Of a DNA stretch of 32,529 nt, positions 4,289-17,549 are shown piece by piece. This DNA is from Campylobacterota bacterium (GTDB lineage: Bacteria; Campylobacterota; Campylobacteria; Campylobacterales; Sulfurimonadaceae). Positions within the stretch are counted from its first letter, which is position 1, and every line of letters starts with the position of its first letter. The DNA lies in NCBI GenBank assembly GCA_013607665.1, contig VCAX01000007.1, positions 1-32,529 of the forward strand, in the 5' to 3' direction. The notes under the pieces are model-generated. The model saw nothing but the letters and a program-made list of their open reading frames with translations, was not told where the DNA came from and ran no database searches. Made by a program: the position numbers and the translations under genes.

Positions 4289-5110
4289 TTAGATACCTTT
4301 GATTCTCTTTTTGATTTCTACTTTATCGTCATACATGTTCTCATCAGCTTTTTGGATAATCTCTGTGAGTTTGTCACCTGTTTGAAAAGGAGAGATTCCA
4401 AATGAAAAACTGAGTGTAAACATCTCTTCATGCGCTTTTAGTTTTTTAGCAAGAACACTCTCACGCAGCTTGTGCAATATTTTACTGCTTTGTTCAAGAG
4501 ATTTTTCTTTAGGGAAGAATAGAAGAAACTCATCACCCCCATAACGCACGACATTTTTACTGATACTTTTGAGTCTGTTTGCAATAAAAATGAGCACTTT
4601 GTCTCCAATGATATGCCCATGCGTATCATTGATCTGCTTGAAATAGTTGAGATCAATAAGGACCAAAAGTCCATCTTGATTAAATGATTCATTGTCATCT
4701 TGCATATAGTTGTCATGAAGCCATTTTCGATTGTGTGTATGTGTGAGCTCATCTTGATAGACAGACTCACGCAGCTTTTCTACTTCAAGACGAAGTGCTT
4801 CTGTTTCATGTAAAACTTCATTGAGAAGAGTGTCGTTTTTCTCTTTAATGGCATTGATGGCTTTTGTAGTGTTTTTGTTTAATAAATTTGCATTCTGTAC
4901 TGTTTTTTCTTGGATTTGTTCTAAATTAGAGCATGCATCTTCAAGAATTTTGCGTGAAATTTCTTCTTCATTTTCAAGAGAAATATTATGTTCATCTGCA
5001 AATTTTGAAAAAACAGAACCATAAATAGAAGATGTGACGACTTCCATATCTTCGATGCTTTCTTTTGTCTCATTGGTAATGATTTTAAAAACTGTACGAT
5101 CCTCTTGCAT
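4289..5110 (-). CDS. GGDEF diguanylate cyclase
   Basis: A probably cytoplasmic enzyme of about 273 aa that would make cyclic di-GMP from two GTP. The N-terminal half is helical and partly coiled coil, with no membrane segment and no recognised sensor domain. The C-terminal GGDEF domain is intact: QDELTHTHNRKWL at its start, an exact GGDEF in VVRYGGDEFLLFFPKE, then SFSFGISPF and ADENMYDDK. The inhibitory I-site RxxD normally just upstream is absent: the two key positions carry Ser and Lys. I place the start at the ATG at 5110. The ATG at 5119 directly abuts the only Shine-Dalgarno (AAGGA), whereas 5110 has it at a proper 9-base distance. The signal it senses is unknown. Confidence 0.9.
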   Translation of the reverse strand: MQEDRTVFKIITNETKESIEDMEVVTSSIYGSVFSKFADEHNISLENEEEISRKILEDACSNLEQIQEKTVQNANLLNKNTTKAINAIKEKNDTLLNEVLHETEALRLEVEKLRESVYQDELTHTHNRKWLHDNYMQDDNESFNQDGLLVLIDLNYFKQINDTHGHIIGDKVLIFIANRLKSISKNVVRYGGDEFLLFFPKEKSLEQSSKILHKLRESVLAKKLKAHEEMFTLSFSFGISPFQTGDKLTEIIQKADENMYDDKVEIKKRIKGI

Positions 5111-5140
5111 CTTTGCCATTCCTTGAATATTGTTGCTATA

Positions 5141-10145: not shown

Positions 10146-11339
10146 TTATTTTTTGATTATATCTTGTGCTGCCAAGTAAGCGGATGCCCAGGCAAAAGCG
10201 AAGTTGTATCCACCACGGCGGCCGACGACATCAAGCGCTTCTCCTGTAAAGTAGAGATTTTTTTGTTTGTGTGATTCCATTGTCTTGGGATTGATTTCAG
10301 TCGTATCAATTCCACCACCGCTGACCTCCGCATGACGAAAACCGTGTGTCTCCTCGACTTCAAGTCTCCAGTTTGCAATAGTGTTGGCTATCTTTTTGGC
10401 CGTTTTTGTATTGATGTCTTTTGCCTCTGTTATAGGAGAGAGTTCTAAAAACTCCAATATATTTGTAGCGATCTTCAGCGGTAAAAGACCGACCAAGATG
10501 TCCACAAGAGTAAAGTGAGGCAGCTCTTTTGCAGTAGTAGTGATGTGACTTGCGATCTGCTGCTGCGTGAGACTTGGAAGCAGATTGAGTGAAACGGCTA
10601 CGTGAGAATACTCCAACAATGCTTTGGAAGCCGCCTGCGAGATATCCAAAATCGCAAAACCGGAGACACCATAGTTTGTAAAGAGAATGTCTCCTTTTGT
10701 CGTAAACTTTTTTTGATGGTTGATAAAGAGCGTCACTTCGCCATCTACTTTCGCTCCTGCCATTTTATGTACTGCTTTTACGTCGATTTCAAGCTGTACA
10801 AGGCTTGGGTAAGGGGGAATGATGTTATGCCTGAATTCCTCTGCAAATGTCTCTGAGTCACTATTGCCGCCAAGATGTGAGGCAGCGCGTGAGCCTGTTG
10901 CTACGACAACTGCATCGTATTTGGCAAAAAACTCTTTTATAGAGTTTATCTTGGCATTGTAGTGAAAAACGACACCGAGACTTTTTGCATAGGTCTCATA
11001 AATTTTTGCGACACTTTTGGCTTCATTGGAGAGAGGATAGACCTTGCCGTCTGCTTTTACTTCTAGGAGCAGTCCCATAGAGTTTGCAAACTTCTCAAAA
11101 GCGTGAAAGTCAAAACTTTTCAGAGCATGTGCAACAAAGCTGGGATTTTCACCAAAATAATCCTGTACTGAGAGATTTCTATTTGTAATGTTGCAACGAC
11201 CGTTTCCAGATACGAGAATCTTTTTTGCCACTTTGGCATTTTGCTCAAAAACAACGACATTATGACCTTTGCCGGCACAAAAAATGGCACAGGCTAAACC
11301 GCTTGCGCCACCACCGATGATTGCTATTTTTTTTGCCAT
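10146..11339 (-). CDS. BaiN/HI0933-family NAD(P)/FAD-dependent oxidoreductase
   Basis: A 397-aa flavoprotein. The N-terminus is an FAD-binding Rossmann fold (AIIGGGASGLACAIF), followed by the family hallmark KKILVSGNGRCNITN. The middle has VVVATGSRAA, and the C-terminus has the second FAD contact, LYFTGEALDVVGRRGGYNF. This is the HI0933/YhiN group, which includes BaiN of bile-acid 7-dehydroxylating bacteria; the substrate of most members is unknown and bile-acid chemistry should not be assumed here. It is the last gene of the long minus-strand cluster. Its ATG is 10 bases after the stop of the YfiR-like gene. Confidence 0.9.
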   Translation of the reverse strand: MAKKIAIIGGGASGLACAIFCAGKGHNVVVFEQNAKVAKKILVSGNGRCNITNRNLSVQDYFGENPSFVAHALKSFDFHAFEKFANSMGLLLEVKADGKVYPLSNEAKSVAKIYETYAKSLGVVFHYNAKINSIKEFFAKYDAVVVATGSRAASHLGGNSDSETFAEEFRHNIIPPYPSLVQLEIDVKAVHKMAGAKVDGEVTLFINHQKKFTTKGDILFTNYGVSGFAILDISQAASKALLEYSHVAVSLNLLPSLTQQQIASHITTTAKELPHFTLVDILVGLLPLKIATNILEFLELSPITEAKDINTKTAKKIANTIANWRLEVEETHGFRHAEVSGGGIDTTEINPKTMESHKQKNLYFTGEALDVVGRRGGYNFAFAWASAYLAAQDIIKK

Positions 11340-11349
11340 TTTTTCAGCC

Positions 11350-11883
11350 TTACTCTTTAAATTTTGAAAGTTGGATCAGGTAGGGATCAAAAACAAATCC
11401 ATACTCTTGTATGATTTTTTTATTGAGATAGGGTTGTGTCGTTTTACCAAAATAGAGTGAAACAAGCACTCCATACTCCAAATAGGCAGGGTCATAAGCA
11501 AAGGAGACAATTTTATTTTCATTTGCCCATTTAGCGATCTCACGCAGCTTTTGTTCTGTATGTTCTAGAACAATGATCGCATCAGGTTTTTGTTTCACAG
11601 CATCTTGAAAGTGCACTGCTTTTACTACTATTTTTTTATTGAGCAGCATATCAGGGTAGTCTGCTTGAATTGCATTTTTGAATTGCATAGCTGCACTGTT
11701 GTCAATCTGTTTTGCCACAATATAGATACGCAAGAGTGTATTATCACTCTTTTGAATGCTTGATTCAAGCAGGGCGATCTTTACAAAGAGTTTGGCTTCA
11801 ATATCGATGATATTGGAGTCATACTGTTTTGCAGAGAGTTGTAATAGTATGAGAAAAAGAAGAGCAAGGACTCTTTTTATCAT
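11350..11883 (-). CDS. YfiR-like (DUF4154) periplasmic protein, tentative
   Basis: This 177-aa protein starts with a clear signal peptide (MIKRVLALLFLILLQLSAK), so it is exported. I chose the ATG at 11883. It forms ATGA with the receptor stop and has GGAG about 7 bases upstream; an in-frame ATG nine codons earlier would put extra residues before the signal peptide. The mature part has no cysteine. Its layout resembles YfiR proteins: KLFVKIALLE near the start, KKIVVKAVHF in the middle, then DPAYLEYGVLVSLYFGK and a NKKIIQEYGFVFDPYLIQLS ending that parallels the family's C-terminal helix. YfiR proteins are periplasmic regulators or partners of membrane signalling enzymes. The match is by pattern only; a type 1 periplasmic-binding fold is the alternative. 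Confidence 0.5.
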   Translation of the reverse strand: MIKRVLALLFLILLQLSAKQYDSNIIDIEAKLFVKIALLESSIQKSDNTLLRIYIVAKQIDNSAAMQFKNAIQADYPDMLLNKKIVVKAVHFQDAVKQKPDAIIVLEHTEQKLREIAKWANENKIVSFAYDPAYLEYGVLVSLYFGKTTQPYLNKKIIQEYGFVFDPYLIQLSKFKE

Positions 11884-13870
11884 CGCATACTCCACTCTAA
11901 AGAGAGCCAAAAGGAGCGTCCGTCACGATGAAAATCATCTAGGTAGGTTCCTGTACCGCTATAGCTTTCATTTCCCAGTTGTGACGGAAAAGCTACATCT
12001 GCATCAAAAATATTTTTTGCACTTGCCTGTATACAAAAGACACCTTGCGTGAAGCTAAGTGTTTGATCAAACATTGTATAGCCATGCAGTGCGCTGCGTG
12101 AATCACCGGCCTCTCTTTTTCTATCACCGACATAGCGAAGTTTACTTGCAGTATGCCATTTGGAAGTTATTTGATAGTAGAGCATAGCATTTGCCAGATG
12201 ATTGGCAACAAAAGGAACATCAGTATGCTCTTTTGTACGCATTTGCATATAACTGTAGTTTGCCTGCAGTGTGAGTTGTTGATTCAAAGGCGTTTTTTCC
12301 TCGAACTCTGCACCGTAGGAGTATTGTGTATCTGCATTGTGCATAACATATGCAGCATCTCTGTAGATGAAATTTTTCATATCGGAATAAAAAATATTGA
12401 CCCTTAGCCATTTGTCAAAAGCTGCTTCATATGTATAGGCAAGTTCCAGCGTATCTATAGTCTCTGATTGCAGGGAACTGTTGCCTTGAAATTGACTTGT
12501 ACTACCGTAAAGTTCTACCCATGAGGGTACTCTAAAAGAGCGTTGGTACATAAGTTTGTAACTTTGTGTCTCATCGGCCGTATAAAGAAGCGATAATTTT
12601 GGAGCGAGGCTCGATTCTGCATCATTATAGTTGTCATATCGCAGTCCGATATTACCTGTGAAGTGTGTTGAAAATGTATAGATGTCGTTGAAGTAAAGAG
12701 CATACTCTCTTCTTGTAAGATTGTTTTTAAGACCATTGTTAGGTAATTCAATGTCCGTATCTTCAGAAACCGAAGGATCGTTAACAAAATATTTTGTATC
12801 GTTTGCCTTTGCTTGAGAAAGGAATAACCCAAAGAGGGCATTATGGACTTTGTTTTGATATTTTAAAGCAGCATCTGCATAGACAACATACTCTTTATAG
12901 TAACCGTTTCCTATGAGGTCGTAAGCTTGTCCAAGTAAACTTAGTGGTCTGAGTCGTGATTTTCCTGTATATTTGTACTGTTTATAGCCTATTTTTGCAT
13001 CAATGGAACTGTTTTTGGATATTTTAGGCGTATAGCGAAGTTCGTTGATAAAAGAGGTGTTTTGAAGATTCTTTGGATCTTGAACAATAGGCCATGCTCC
13101 ATAGCCATAGAAGTTCTGTGTATTTTTTTCAAGCCATCTGCTTGTCAGTGAAAGTTCTTTTGCAAATTGCAGTGTTATGCCTAAGGATTTATTTGTAAAG
13201 TCTTCATAGGAGGTAAAACTGTTTTGCATAGGTAAAAGGGAATAAGAATTGTACTCGCGAGAGTTGTCATTCTTTACAAAAAAACCATCAAGAGCTAGTT
13301 TTATGCCATTTGCATTGACATTTTGCGTAAATCCGATGTTGTGATTGCCAACAGTGCTGACATTTGTAAAGAGGATATTCTCTTTATGTGCGGAGGCTTT
13401 TGTGATGACATTGATAACACCGATGTGGGCATAGGAGCCATATAAAGCAGAAGCAGGTCCTCGAATGACTTCAATTCTTTGTATACTCTCTATAGGCATA
13501 TCAAGATAAAAATAGCTTGAACCGGCAAGTTCTGTATTGATACTGATACCGTCAATCATCAGTTTTATCTTATCGCGAACAAAGGATTTGTTTCCCCGCA
13601 TAATGATCTCTGTTTTGCTCCGGCTGTTCCCATAGAGAGTTCTATTCCCGGAACAGTGCCCAGTGCATCATAGAGATTTGTAATACCAAGTTTTTTGAGC
13701 TCATTTGCATGCAGGACAGAGACAATGGCAGGTGTTTTGTTGATGTTGAGTTTCGTTTTTGCAGTGATCTCAGAAGCGTCATTCAAATCTTCAAGCAGAT
13801 GTAGTTTGTCGATTTCATCTCCAAAAACAACTATGGTTACAGCTATAAATATTAAAACTATTCTTTTCAT
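11880..13870 (-). pseudogene. TonB-dependent outer-membrane receptor, interrupted by a frameshift
   Basis: Two overlapping frames together make one receptor of about 665 aa. The first (13870-13565) has a signal peptide (MKRIVLIFIAVTIVVFG) and the first half of a plug domain (TPAIVSVLHANELKKLG, VPGIELSMGTAGAKQ). The second (open from 13601 to the stop at 11880) continues with MRGNKSFVRDKIKLMIDG, RIEVIRGPASALYGS and then a full barrel with many aromatic strand ends. Continuity is lost between about 13601 and 13625, where CAGAGATC needs one extra base, or the loss of two (a possible AG duplication), to read through. The substrate is unknown; siderophore, haem, cobalamin and metal complexes are all possible. 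The start overlaps the kinase stop (ATGA), and the stop overlaps the next start (ATGA). It could also be a sequencing error. Confidence 0.85.
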
Positions 13871-15312
13871 TGTTTTTCCCCTTGTAGCGGTATCTTTATA
13901 CTAAAACAACATCCTCTTTTTGTGTTATGAACCAAGAGAGTTCCGCATAATTTTTTATCGACAATATTTTTAGCGATGTAGAGTCCTATACCTGTTCCGT
14001 GAGAGGCTGGTTTTGTACTGAAGTAAGGCTCAAAAATTGAAGAAATGATATCCTCAGGAATACCTCCTCCATTATCCTCAACAGCTATAATACCTTCCTT
14101 TTCATTTTTCGAAATAACAATGAAAATTTCACCAAAAGAGATGCTTTTGTCTGTTATTTTACTATGCAGCGCATCTTTTGCATTATTAAGCAAAATTAAA
14201 AGCAGTTGTTTAAATTCATTTTCAATACCTTCAAAAAGGAGTGGTGTTTTTTCTATAAGCTTAATGTGAATATGATGTGCTTTTAACTCATCTTTTAAAA
14301 TCTTCAGTATATCTTCAATACTCTCTTTTGGGTTGAACAACTCTTTCTTACCTTGTGGATTGAGAAAATTACGAAAATCATCGATCGTATCAGACATATA
14401 GTTGGTGTTTGCTGCAATGAGTGCGAGTTTTTCACGTAAGTTATTGTCATCGACCTTGCCGAGCATCGCTTCCATTTCAAGATTTGAGACAGAGATACCG
14501 ATGATATTAAGTGGTTGTCTCCACTGGTGTGCAATAGACTCGAGGATCTCCCCCATTGCCGCTTGACGCGATTGATGCAGCATTAGCTGTTCTTGTTTCT
14601 GCACTTTTTGCACTTCTTCTTTTATGTCGTCTTTGAGTTTTTCGTTGAATGTTTTGAGCTCTTGGAGGTGCTGCTCGATTTCGCCCATCATTGTGTTGGC
14701 AACATTTGCAATGGTCTGTATCTCTTGACTTCTATTTCTAAAGCGGATAACTTTTCTTTTTTTGGATTGTGAATACATTCTTAGGATATGAGCGATTGTT
14801 CTGAGCGCATTTAAGTCTTGTTTGACATATACATAGAACATTGAAAAGAGAAAAAGGGTGAGCAGAAAAATATATAACTGTAAGGTCAAGATTTGCTGCT
14901 GCAGGGTCTGGATATAAGCATTTGAGTAGTGTATTGTTATAGTTGCAATTTTTTTATGTGTAAAGGGGTCAATAATATTCGTTGTATAGGAAAAAAGTTT
15001 TTTTGATTTTGCATGTGTCTCTTTTTGTTTTGTGATACTGTGTTTATCAGCATATCTGACTTGTATAGACTCTACTCCATTGGCCTGTAGGATTGTTTTG
15101 AGCAGTTGTTCAAACTGTTTTTCTTGGTTAAAGGAGATATCATAGGCCATGGCCGGTTTGAGAGTATTGAGAATCAGTTTTATTTTATCTGCTTCTGATT
15201 GATTTAAAATTTTTTCAAAAGAGGTGGTTATGAAGAGATAGGTAAAGATATTTAAAAGAAGAAAAATAAGCCAAAAGAAAAAACTGAATTTGGCTATAAG
15301 TGTCTTAAACAT
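13867..15312 (-). CDS. Membrane sensor histidine kinase
   Basis: A 481-aa inner-membrane sensor kinase. It has a first membrane helix at about 10-30, a periplasmic sensor region at about 31-138 (no named domain recognised), a second helix at about 140-163, a HAMP-like linker and a long coiled coil. The phospho-acceptor box IAHQWRQPLNI has His262, an HQWRQP type common in Campylobacterota. The ATPase domain has the N box (LLILLNNAKDAL), VEDNGGGIP and HGTGIGLYIAKNI, all intact. No receiver domain is attached and no response regulator is adjacent. It begins 14 bases after mutS2 behind AGGAAAGGA, and its TGA overlaps the receptor ATG. The coupling to the receptor and YfiR-like genes suggests that it reports on the same ligand. 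Confidence 0.92.
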   Translation of the reverse strand: MFKTLIAKFSFFFWLIFLLLNIFTYLFITTSFEKILNQSEADKIKLILNTLKPAMAYDISFNQEKQFEQLLKTILQANGVESIQVRYADKHSITKQKETHAKSKKLFSYTTNIIDPFTHKKIATITIHYSNAYIQTLQQQILTLQLYIFLLTLFLFSMFYVYVKQDLNALRTIAHILRMYSQSKKRKVIRFRNRSQEIQTIANVANTMMGEIEQHLQELKTFNEKLKDDIKEEVQKVQKQEQLMLHQSRQAAMGEILESIAHQWRQPLNIIGISVSNLEMEAMLGKVDDNNLREKLALIAANTNYMSDTIDDFRNFLNPQGKKELFNPKESIEDILKILKDELKAHHIHIKLIEKTPLLFEGIENEFKQLLLILLNNAKDALHSKITDKSISFGEIFIVISKNEKEGIIAVEDNGGGIPEDIISSIFEPYFSTKPASHGTGIGLYIAKNIVDKKLCGTLLVHNTKRGCCFSIKIPLQGEKQ

Positions 15313-15326
15313 CTTTTTCCTTTCCT

Positions 15327-17549
15327 TTAGAGATGCACTATCTTAGCACCAAATCCACCCATATACTGTGGTGCATCCTCAAAGCCTTTGACACGTGGAT
15401 GCTGCTTGAGAAACTCTTTGACAGCATAGGAGAGTTTTCCTGTACCGATACCATGATAGACGATAACCTCGTCCCAGCCGTTGATAAGTGCATCATTTAA
15501 GAACTTATCGAGCACTTCTGTCGCTTCATCGGCTCGCATACCGTGCAGGTCACATTTTAATCCTGCTTTTTTTGTGACATTGAGATTGACATTGGTTGTC
15601 GCTTTTGTTTTGACGATTTTGGTATGTTTGAGATGTTTTGTTTTCACGCGCACCTTCATACCGTTTACTTCAATGATAGCCTCGTTTTTGCCTTTCATCG
15701 CAACAATAGTACCGCTTTGTGAGTGATATTTTACTTCATCACCGACTTTAAAAGTTACTTCGCGTTGGATGTTCTCTTTTTGCTCACGCGGCAGTTTTTT
15801 ATTTGCAGCATTCATGGCACGGTGAATCTCTTTTACATCGCTACCGCGAGCCGCTTTTTTTGCTTCGTTTATGGCAAGATCATATTCACGTTTGAGCTTG
15901 GCTTTTTGCTTTTGGAGTTCTCTGTGCAGCTCCTCTTTTTGCTCTTTGAGTGCAAGCTCTTTTTTTTGCAGTGCTTCGATCTTCTCATCAACGGCTTTGT
16001 GTTTTTGTTTGAGTTCACGCTCAAGCTGACTTCCACGCTCAATAAGTAAAGAGAGTTTTTCGGAGTTGTCTCCATAAACTTTTTTTGCTTCATTTACCAA
16101 ACTGTTGGCTATGCCATAGCGTGAGGCGGTCTCAAAAGCGTAACTTTTTCCAATGATGCCCTGTATAAATTCATAGGTAGGACGACGAGATCCCTCGTCA
16201 TAAACGGCTGCCATAAGCTCTACATCGTCACGATCAGCCATAAGAGCTGCCAGGCGTTTATGGTGGGTAGTGACAACAACTTTATGTCCACGTTTGATAA
16301 GATCGTCCAAAATGACCTTAAAAAGGGCTGCCGCTTCATCAGAGTCTGTTCCGAGTTCTATCTCATCAACACCGATAAGCGCAGATTTATAGCCAAATAT
16401 ATGTGCAAACTGCTGCATACGTCCTGCAAAGGTCGAGATGTCATTTTTTACATTTTGCGGGTCATCGATGATGGCTTCAATGGCTTTGAAGTTCCCAATG
16501 TGGGATTTGTTCTCATTGAGTCTCATCGGAATAATGTATTTTGCCATAAATGCAGCGGCAAGAATGGATTTGAGCAGCATTGTTTTCCCGCCGGCATTGA
16601 CACCCGTGATCATCAAAATATTTTTTGAAAAATCGACACTTATCGGTTTTGCATTATGCAGGGCAGGGTGGATAAATTCATGCAGGAGTATTTTAGAATC
16701 TTTTTGGCTTTTAAGAAGTTGGAGATTCTTACTCTTTGCAAAAAGGACACGTGCTTGGTAGTTGTCAAAACGGGTAAACTCTTTGTCTATAAAGTTAATA
16801 AAAGGCAGGAGTTCTGCAAGCTTTTGAGAAAACTCCTTTGCATAGTTGTAAAAGATGGCTTCACGCTCTTGTTCTATGTAGCGGATTTTCTCTTTTGTCT
16901 TTAAAATAGCATCAGGAGCGACATAGAAAAAGCCGCCGCTACTGCGCCCAATAACAGCACCTTTGAGCACATGGTTAAAGCCGCCGCGCACAAGCAGACA
17001 CTCTTCGTTGTTGATGTAGTGAACCTGTGTATCGACAAGGTAACCGGCAAGTTTCGAGCTGTTCATCATACGTTTGAGCGAGCCGCTCATCTCGTTTTTA
17101 TACTCTTTGATTCTTTGTGAGAGTCCAAAGAATGTCTCATCGAGATTCTCTTCAAATTTTCCTTCACTTGTGAAGTACTTTTCGACTTCTAAAAAATGCT
17201 CAGGAGTGATGATCTTCGCCATCCACTCCCCAATGAGTCCCTCAAGGTCACGATTTTTAAAGTAGCGAAAATAACGCACGACTTTAATGACTTCAAAAAT
17301 CTGTTCAAAGTTGAGTACACCGTGTTTTTTAAGATGGAGTTTTATCTCTGTGAAGTCTGCAATTTTCGGTGGTGCTTTAAACTCAAGTGCATCAAGGGCT
17401 TTGATGTAGCGAAAATGCAGCTCTTGATCACCCTCTATATAGAGCGAGTGTTTGCGTGAGAAGAAACTCTCAAACTCTGCAATATGCTGTTGCAGGTCGA
17501 GTTGCGTGATAAGTTTTGTGATTTTATTTTGTTTATTATCTATTGACAT
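15327..17549 (-). CDS. mutS2: MutS2 family endonuclease/ATPase with Smr domain
   Basis: A 740-aa protein. After a helical MutS-like core, the ABC-type ATPase shows Walker A ITGVNAGGKTMLL (around residue 314) and Walker B plus signature ALIGVDEIELGTDSDEAAAL. A long charged coiled coil follows (about 500-600), then a linker. The C-terminal Smr nuclease domain carries CDLHGMRADEA and VYHGIGTGKL. MutS2 acts on branched DNA and, in some bacteria, on collided ribosomes; in Helicobacter it limits recombination. The length is slightly under the usual ~780, but all parts are present. It overlaps the small membrane-protein gene upstream by 10 bases. The murC, small membrane protein, mutS2 order is, from memory, conserved in Campylobacter. 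Confidence 0.95.
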   Translation of the reverse strand: MSIDNKQNKITKLITQLDLQQHIAEFESFFSRKHSLYIEGDQELHFRYIKALDALEFKAPPKIADFTEIKLHLKKHGVLNFEQIFEVIKVVRYFRYFKNRDLEGLIGEWMAKIITPEHFLEVEKYFTSEGKFEENLDETFFGLSQRIKEYKNEMSGSLKRMMNSSKLAGYLVDTQVHYINNEECLLVRGGFNHVLKGAVIGRSSGGFFYVAPDAILKTKEKIRYIEQEREAIFYNYAKEFSQKLAELLPFINFIDKEFTRFDNYQARVLFAKSKNLQLLKSQKDSKILLHEFIHPALHNAKPISVDFSKNILMITGVNAGGKTMLLKSILAAAFMAKYIIPMRLNENKSHIGNFKAIEAIIDDPQNVKNDISTFAGRMQQFAHIFGYKSALIGVDEIELGTDSDEAAALFKVILDDLIKRGHKVVVTTHHKRLAALMADRDDVELMAAVYDEGSRRPTYEFIQGIIGKSYAFETASRYGIANSLVNEAKKVYGDNSEKLSLLIERGSQLERELKQKHKAVDEKIEALQKKELALKEQKEELHRELQKQKAKLKREYDLAINEAKKAARGSDVKEIHRAMNAANKKLPREQKENIQREVTFKVGDEVKYHSQSGTIVAMKGKNEAIIEVNGMKVRVKTKHLKHTKIVKTKATTNVNLNVTKKAGLKCDLHGMRADEATEVLDKFLNDALINGWDEVIVYHGIGTGKLSYAVKEFLKQHPRVKGFEDAPQYMGGFGAKIVHL

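Follow-up and report, generated by a model that had tools for sequence, protein, structure and literature searches.

A three-gene cluster in a Sulfurimonadaceae genome is, on balance, probably an accessory Yfi-type signalling cassette. It combines a TonB-family receptor in the outer membrane with a periplasmic YfiR protein and a sensor in the inner membrane, in which a histidine kinase replaces the diguanylate cyclase as output. The cluster occupies positions 11350–15312 of a 32,529-nucleotide window (the whole stretch of DNA analysed, contig VCAX01000007.1 of assembly GCA_013607665.1), where the list of open reading frames (ORFs) places the kinase, receptor and YfiR-like genes in that order on the minus strand. 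YfiR would hold the sensor in one state, the receptor would control YfiR, and the kinase would signal to an unlinked regulator. Sequence and predicted structure establish the parts of the module, their linkage and translational overlap, their insertion into the chromosome and the sharing of the sensor with other YfiR partners.

YfiR is described as repressing YfiN via its periplasmic PAS domain, and outer-membrane YfiB as sequestering YfiR, in the text of two reports (PMC3375315, PMC4887326). The protein assigned here to YfiR by Pfam and predicted fold (11350–11883, minus strand) has 177 amino acids (aa) and a signal peptide. Its structural model, with a predicted local distance difference test (pLDDT) score of 95, superimposes on P. 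aeruginosa YfiR (4zhu) with Z = 14.2 over 145 residues. Pfam DUF4154 is matched by 21 of 40 of its homologues at E ≤ 0.01; the window protein itself reaches E = 4.5e-4 and 20.8 bits, under the cut-off of 24.9. An earlier note on this DNA had proposed the YfiR identity and a DUF4154 check. The identity is borne out by the fold and the family matches, and of the check the fold half succeeded while the protein's own Pfam score stayed sub-threshold. Because a whole-genome family search of its own genome found no DUF4154 above the Pfam gathering threshold, both profile and fold are needed to make the assignment. A sequence profile search of the PDB with the YfiR and sensor alignments gave no matches, comparison of single-sequence profiles with E. 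coli YfiR and DgcN fell short of significance, and a search for relatives of the protein on plasmids gave no match. The protein contains no cysteine, and therefore the disulfides described for P. aeruginosa YfiR cannot form (PMC4887326).

The kinase (13867–15312, minus strand, 481 aa) consists, by its ORF, Pfam matches, model and motifs, of a transmembrane (TM) segment, a periplasmic PAS/Cache domain, a second TM segment, a HAMP-like linker, HisKA and HATPase_c. HisKA scores 25.0 bits, just below its cut-off of 26.9, and the H, N, G1 and G2 motifs, read directly, are complete (AHQWRQPL, NNAKDAL, DNGGG, GTGIGL). Alignment, fold and tree place the periplasmic sensor at aa 31–140 (14893–15222, minus strand). 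Its model is an extracytoplasmic PAS/Cache domain, matching WalK (Z = 10.8), LapD-type (Z = 10.7) and CitA (Z = 8.3) sensors; CitA served as template for the YfiN model in the text of PMC3375315. The N-terminal region of the kinase aligns with the inner-membrane partners of other YfiR genes, whose outputs are GGDEF, GGDEF-EAL, kinase and hybrid kinase. Thus the kinase does stand where a GGDEF enzyme was to be expected, as the earlier note had it, for its sensor domain is the one found in the cyclase partners.

We tallied 80 hits to a profile of this sensor in 149 related genomes. Fifty-seven lie within 1 kb of a same-strand YfiR gene; the remainder comprise 7 in the trio arrangement and 16 elsewhere, at least 3 of the latter owing to contig ends. 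Kinase outputs do not form one clade on the sensor tree (approximately unbiased test, p = 0.00028); kinase forms have more than one origin. A clade of 16 rows with full support holds the trio kinases together with four kinases that have no linked receptor or YfiR gene. Several kinases with the same sensor (L076–L079, L071, L073–L075 in our numbering of loci) have no adjoining YfiR or TonB receptor gene. That the window kinase is a mere paralogue of unlinked kinases was ruled out by the common sensor and the tree.

A homologue of the YfiR-like protein is present in 62 of the 149 genomes. The order kinase, receptor, YfiR is found in ten genomes of a close clade (the window's own genome, G000, and G007, G026, G079, G015, G075, G084, G089, G021 and G027), some of these loci being split by contig ends. 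A scan of named genomes added three more carriers; the carriers are Sulfurimonas metagenome-assembled genomes (MAGs) and one Campylobacterales MAG. Thirteen Sulfurimonas-type genomes thus carry the trio, a mobile cassette of some marine sulfur bacteria that is placed at several sites in the chromosome with different neighbours. The earlier note would have been refuted by the lack of both a DUF4154 match, by profile or structure, and a recurrence of the trio, and its proposal withstood this test. Pairwise identities of the three proteins correlate over 13 loci (r = 0.93–0.94), to which shared ancestry contributes.

Both junctions of the trio are ATGA stop/start overlaps, read in the sequence at 13867–13870 (kinase to receptor) and 11880–11883 (receptor to YfiR-like), both on the minus strand, as previously noted. 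Among the trio loci of relatives, the first junction is ATGA in 8 of 12 and the second is a 4-nucleotide [A/T/G]TGA overlap in 10 of 12. Given these relatives, the overlaps exceed chance. It could be argued that the kinase has nothing to do with the YfiR-receptor pair and is its neighbour only incidentally: receptor-YfiR-sensor is the commoner order elsewhere, the kinase-first order being special to the trio clade, and no response regulator is linked. We consider this very improbable, as order and overlaps are conserved in 13 genomes at several sites and the kinase carries the same sensor as other YfiR-linked enzymes.

The receptor contains only Plug and barrel domains by Pfam. The STN signalling domain was found neither in it nor in an intact orthologue, whose plug begins at residue 43. 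Linkage of such receptors to YfiR is widespread: a TonB receptor gene lies within 700 bp of 54 of the 61 YfiR genes examined (47 on the same strand, 7 divergent), against a backdrop of roughly four plug genes per genome. In YfiR-linked receptors the signal peptide is immediately followed by a common segment, LLEDLxxASEIATKTKLNIxxTP in its general form, represented in the window by LHLLEDLNDASEITAKTKLNINKTP (13730–13804, minus strand; read directly and by the profile of relatives). A strict regular expression for this segment matched 13 of 38 linked receptors, and we used a leave-one-out profile instead. By this profile all 35 linked receptors scored above 5 bits (median 50), whereas the 38 unlinked receptors yielded just 2 such scores, the best being 6.8 bits. 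The receptor L167 of genome G017, initially sampled as unlinked, reached 56 bits; its gene is located at one contig end and the YfiR gene of G017 at a different one. A TonB-box-like pattern, written after viewing the unlinked set, follows the signal peptide in 36 of 38 unlinked receptors (set L154–L193) and occurs outside the signal peptide in 0 of 38 linked ones. A divergent TonB box in the linked receptors is possible, and these receptors may simply be one clade.

These observations suggest a broader proposal, which we put forward tentatively as somewhat unlikely in its full form: that YfiR-linked TonB-family receptors no longer have an ordinary TonB box and are dedicated outer-membrane sensors whose conserved N-terminal leucine/acidic segment docks YfiR. 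They would form a general relay from outer to inner membrane, distinct from FecA/FecR and YfiB, which evolution has joined to cyclases, phosphodiesterases and SpoIIE phosphatases and, on several occasions, to histidine kinases.

For the trio itself, by analogy with YfiB-YfiR-YfiN and from the gene linkage and shared domains, it is plausible that a receptor ligand is relayed through YfiR to the kinase. The YfiR protein would bind the sensor domain of the kinase and keep it in one state. Ligand on the receptor would alter the exposure of the N-terminal periplasmic segment, which would bind or release YfiR; kinase activity would then change, and the signal would pass to a response regulator encoded elsewhere. 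If YfiBNR is a guide, repression most likely comes from YfiR and its relief from the receptor.

Several findings weigh against this reading. Ligand-binding proteins match the YfiR fold as well (Rhodothermus 6k1x, Z = 13.5; Trp-binding 3lft, Z = 12.9), and at the YfiR patch positions F162 and E163 this protein has other residues. About 12 proteins carry the same sensor with no YfiR gene nearby, and some of these fall inside the trio clade; the sensor may therefore function by itself or rely on a YfiR encoded elsewhere. The kinase sensor has no match to Pfam CHASE8, which E. coli DgcN does match. When the sensor profile is compared with an alignment of CHASE8 domains from the same order and DgcN, the result is E = 2.6e-10 with TM segments included and not significant once they are removed; because of this dependence the homology is likely, not proved.

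The first of these findings also bears on another account, in which the three genes form an uptake-and-sense operon: the receptor would import a scarce nutrient, the YfiR-like protein would capture it as a ligand-binding protein, and the kinase would sense the loaded protein and regulate uptake genes, with neither repression by YfiR nor direct receptor-YfiR contact. Besides the near-equal match of the YfiR model to small substrate-binding proteins, P. aeruginosa YfiR weakly binds vitamin B6 or Trp (PMC4887326), and the receptor is, at low similarity, nearest by sequence among solved structures to the colicin I and B12 receptors. We nevertheless regard this account as unlikely. No transporter genes were recognised among the scanned flanking proteins beside the trio at this site, and neighbours vary between sites; the same receptor-YfiR pair is also linked to cyclases and phosphodiesterases; and the linked receptors do not show the TonB-box-like sequence of other receptors, which energised import would need.

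The earlier note had treated the receptor as one intact gene, and this is not borne out: in this assembly the gene is frameshifted in the plug, which is split across two frames that each match Pfam Plug. The 5′ fragment (13565–13870, minus strand, 101 aa; ORF and Pfam) holds the signal peptide, the N-terminal segment and the first part of the plug. The 3′ fragment (11880–13601, minus strand, 573 aa) holds the rest of the plug (E = 2.6e-10) and the beta-barrel (PF00593, E = 1.2e-34). ORFs and orthologue alignment place the break at 13600–13612. Orthologues in relatives are uninterrupted at this point, and among about ten orthologues the frameshift is private to this assembly. Phase variation was considered as its cause and rejected, as the site has no long simple repeat and relatives do not vary there.

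The source is a draft MAG of 141 contigs and 88% completeness, and because of this an assembly error and a recent mutation are not separable at the break. A real frameshift would deprive the kinase and YfiR of outer-membrane input in this genome. It is conceivable, though we lean slightly the other way, that the cassette is decaying here, having lost its receptor input and heading to the lone-kinase state of some relatives. The plug frameshift is present in the window only, and the lone kinases L076–L079 are nested in the trio clade, indicating that kinases can lose their receptor and YfiR genes or leave them behind. Against decay, a draft of 141 contigs may contain an indel error, and the 573 codons downstream of the break are still open and 77% identical to the G007 receptor, so that any loss must be very recent. 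Elsewhere in the same genome (G000:C53:18891–19190, L150), a CHASE8 match lies in a 149-aa frame beside a 249-aa GGDEF frame, with no YfiR gene nearby; a second frameshift or assembly error may have split one gene into these two frames.

The trio is an inserted accessory cassette at the junction of two housekeeping genes, both of which were correctly named in the earlier note, as was the insertion. Upstream on the minus strand lies mutS2 (15327–17549; MutS_V and Smr by Pfam) and downstream a gene for a HI0933-like FAD oxidoreductase (10146–11339, minus strand; Pfam), hereafter the flavoprotein. We examined 30 flavoprotein loci, of which 3 have the trio at this site and 4 are uninformative. Of the 26 informative relatives, 15 have an empty site, with no more than about 13 bp between the end of mutS2 and the flavoprotein gene, and 8 of the 30 loci hold other DNA at the mutS2 junction (about 85–1100 bp). 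G079 is a fourth carrier of the trio at this site. In G015 the trio is at another site and the mutS2-flavoprotein site is empty; in G075 and G027 it separates a CysZ-like gene from a UvrD-type helicase gene, whose junction is uninterrupted in the window. The flavoprotein of G021 is closer to that of the window than is the flavoprotein of G079 (identity 0.71 and 0.66), whereas its kinase is much more distant (0.40 and 0.57). That G021 is near by flavoprotein and distant by kinase points to transfer or replacement. The junction (11339–15327 in the window) is also an insertion hotspot, with other inserts of about 0.7–1.1 kb in L096, L101, L108, L110, L119 and L120.

No response-regulator gene adjoins the kinase in the window neighbourhood, in agreement with the earlier note, and a REC-motif scan found none adjoining the other trio loci. 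A scan of the trio and of ten flanking proteins of the window detected no OmpA domain, and an Rfam search returned no RNA elements in the window. A short GGDEF protein of 276 aa is encoded at 4289–5119, outside the trio.

True CHASE8 proteins of the same bacterial order sit in YfiR-receptor-CHASE8 operons, whose receptors start with SLEELLN-type segments. Together with the trio, these operons indicate that receptor-YfiR coupling occurs in two diverged lineages of the module. Among eight CHASE8-type outputs scanned, six are SpoIIE-type phosphatases, one is GGDEF and one is a histidine kinase. The SpoIIE-type (PP2C-like) phosphatase outputs are those of L134, L136, L139, L142, L143 and L145, and the text of the 2012 survey of YfiR-YfiN systems (PMC3375315) does not name this output.

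The activating signal of YfiR systems is presented as an open question in the text of that survey. Should YfiR take its natural input from a ligand-gated outer-membrane receptor across a whole bacterial order, the signal would become a defined and searchable molecule. If YfiR controls the kinase, recognition of a nutrient or siderophore would be tied to two-component signalling without a FecR-type transducer. With one periplasmic front end attached to at least four types of output, the system is also a clear example of a reused module.

The trio resembles several known systems and differs from each. With YfiBNR (TpbB/AwsXRO) of P. aeruginosa and E. coli it has in common the YfiR fold, a PAS-like sensor with a HAMP-like linker, an outer-membrane third component and a three-gene operon. 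It departs from YfiBNR in its HisKA-HATPase output in place of GGDEF, in having a TonB-family receptor rather than the OmpA/Pal lipoprotein YfiB, in a YfiR-like protein free of cysteine and in a sensor outside Pfam CHASE8. Closer in output are the divergent YfiR-YfiN systems, in which YfiR adjoins a PAS sensor with a non-cyclase output, sensor histidine kinases included. According to the text of Malone et al. 2012 (PMC3375315), the YfiR-YfiN[PAS] core is modular, GGDEF being swapped in distant species for GGDEF-EAL, HPT, MCP or sensor histidine kinases, and YfiB is mostly missing from these distant systems. The output swap was therefore already known from that text, whose main part makes no mention of TonB receptors. 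We found no paper on a YfiR-TonB receptor link in the open-access literature, subscription papers not being covered, and to the extent that this could be checked, no earlier description exists of the receptor partnership, the N-terminal signature or the SpoIIE output. The CHASE8-type loci likewise have a periplasmic sensor in the same operon as YfiR and a TonB receptor, and differ in their order (YfiR-receptor-sensor) and in an output that is mostly a SpoIIE-type phosphatase. FecA-FecR similarly couples a TonB-family receptor to a signalling output across the periplasm; in the trio, by contrast, the receptor is without STN and has no FecR or sigma factor beside it, and YfiR and a kinase are found instead.

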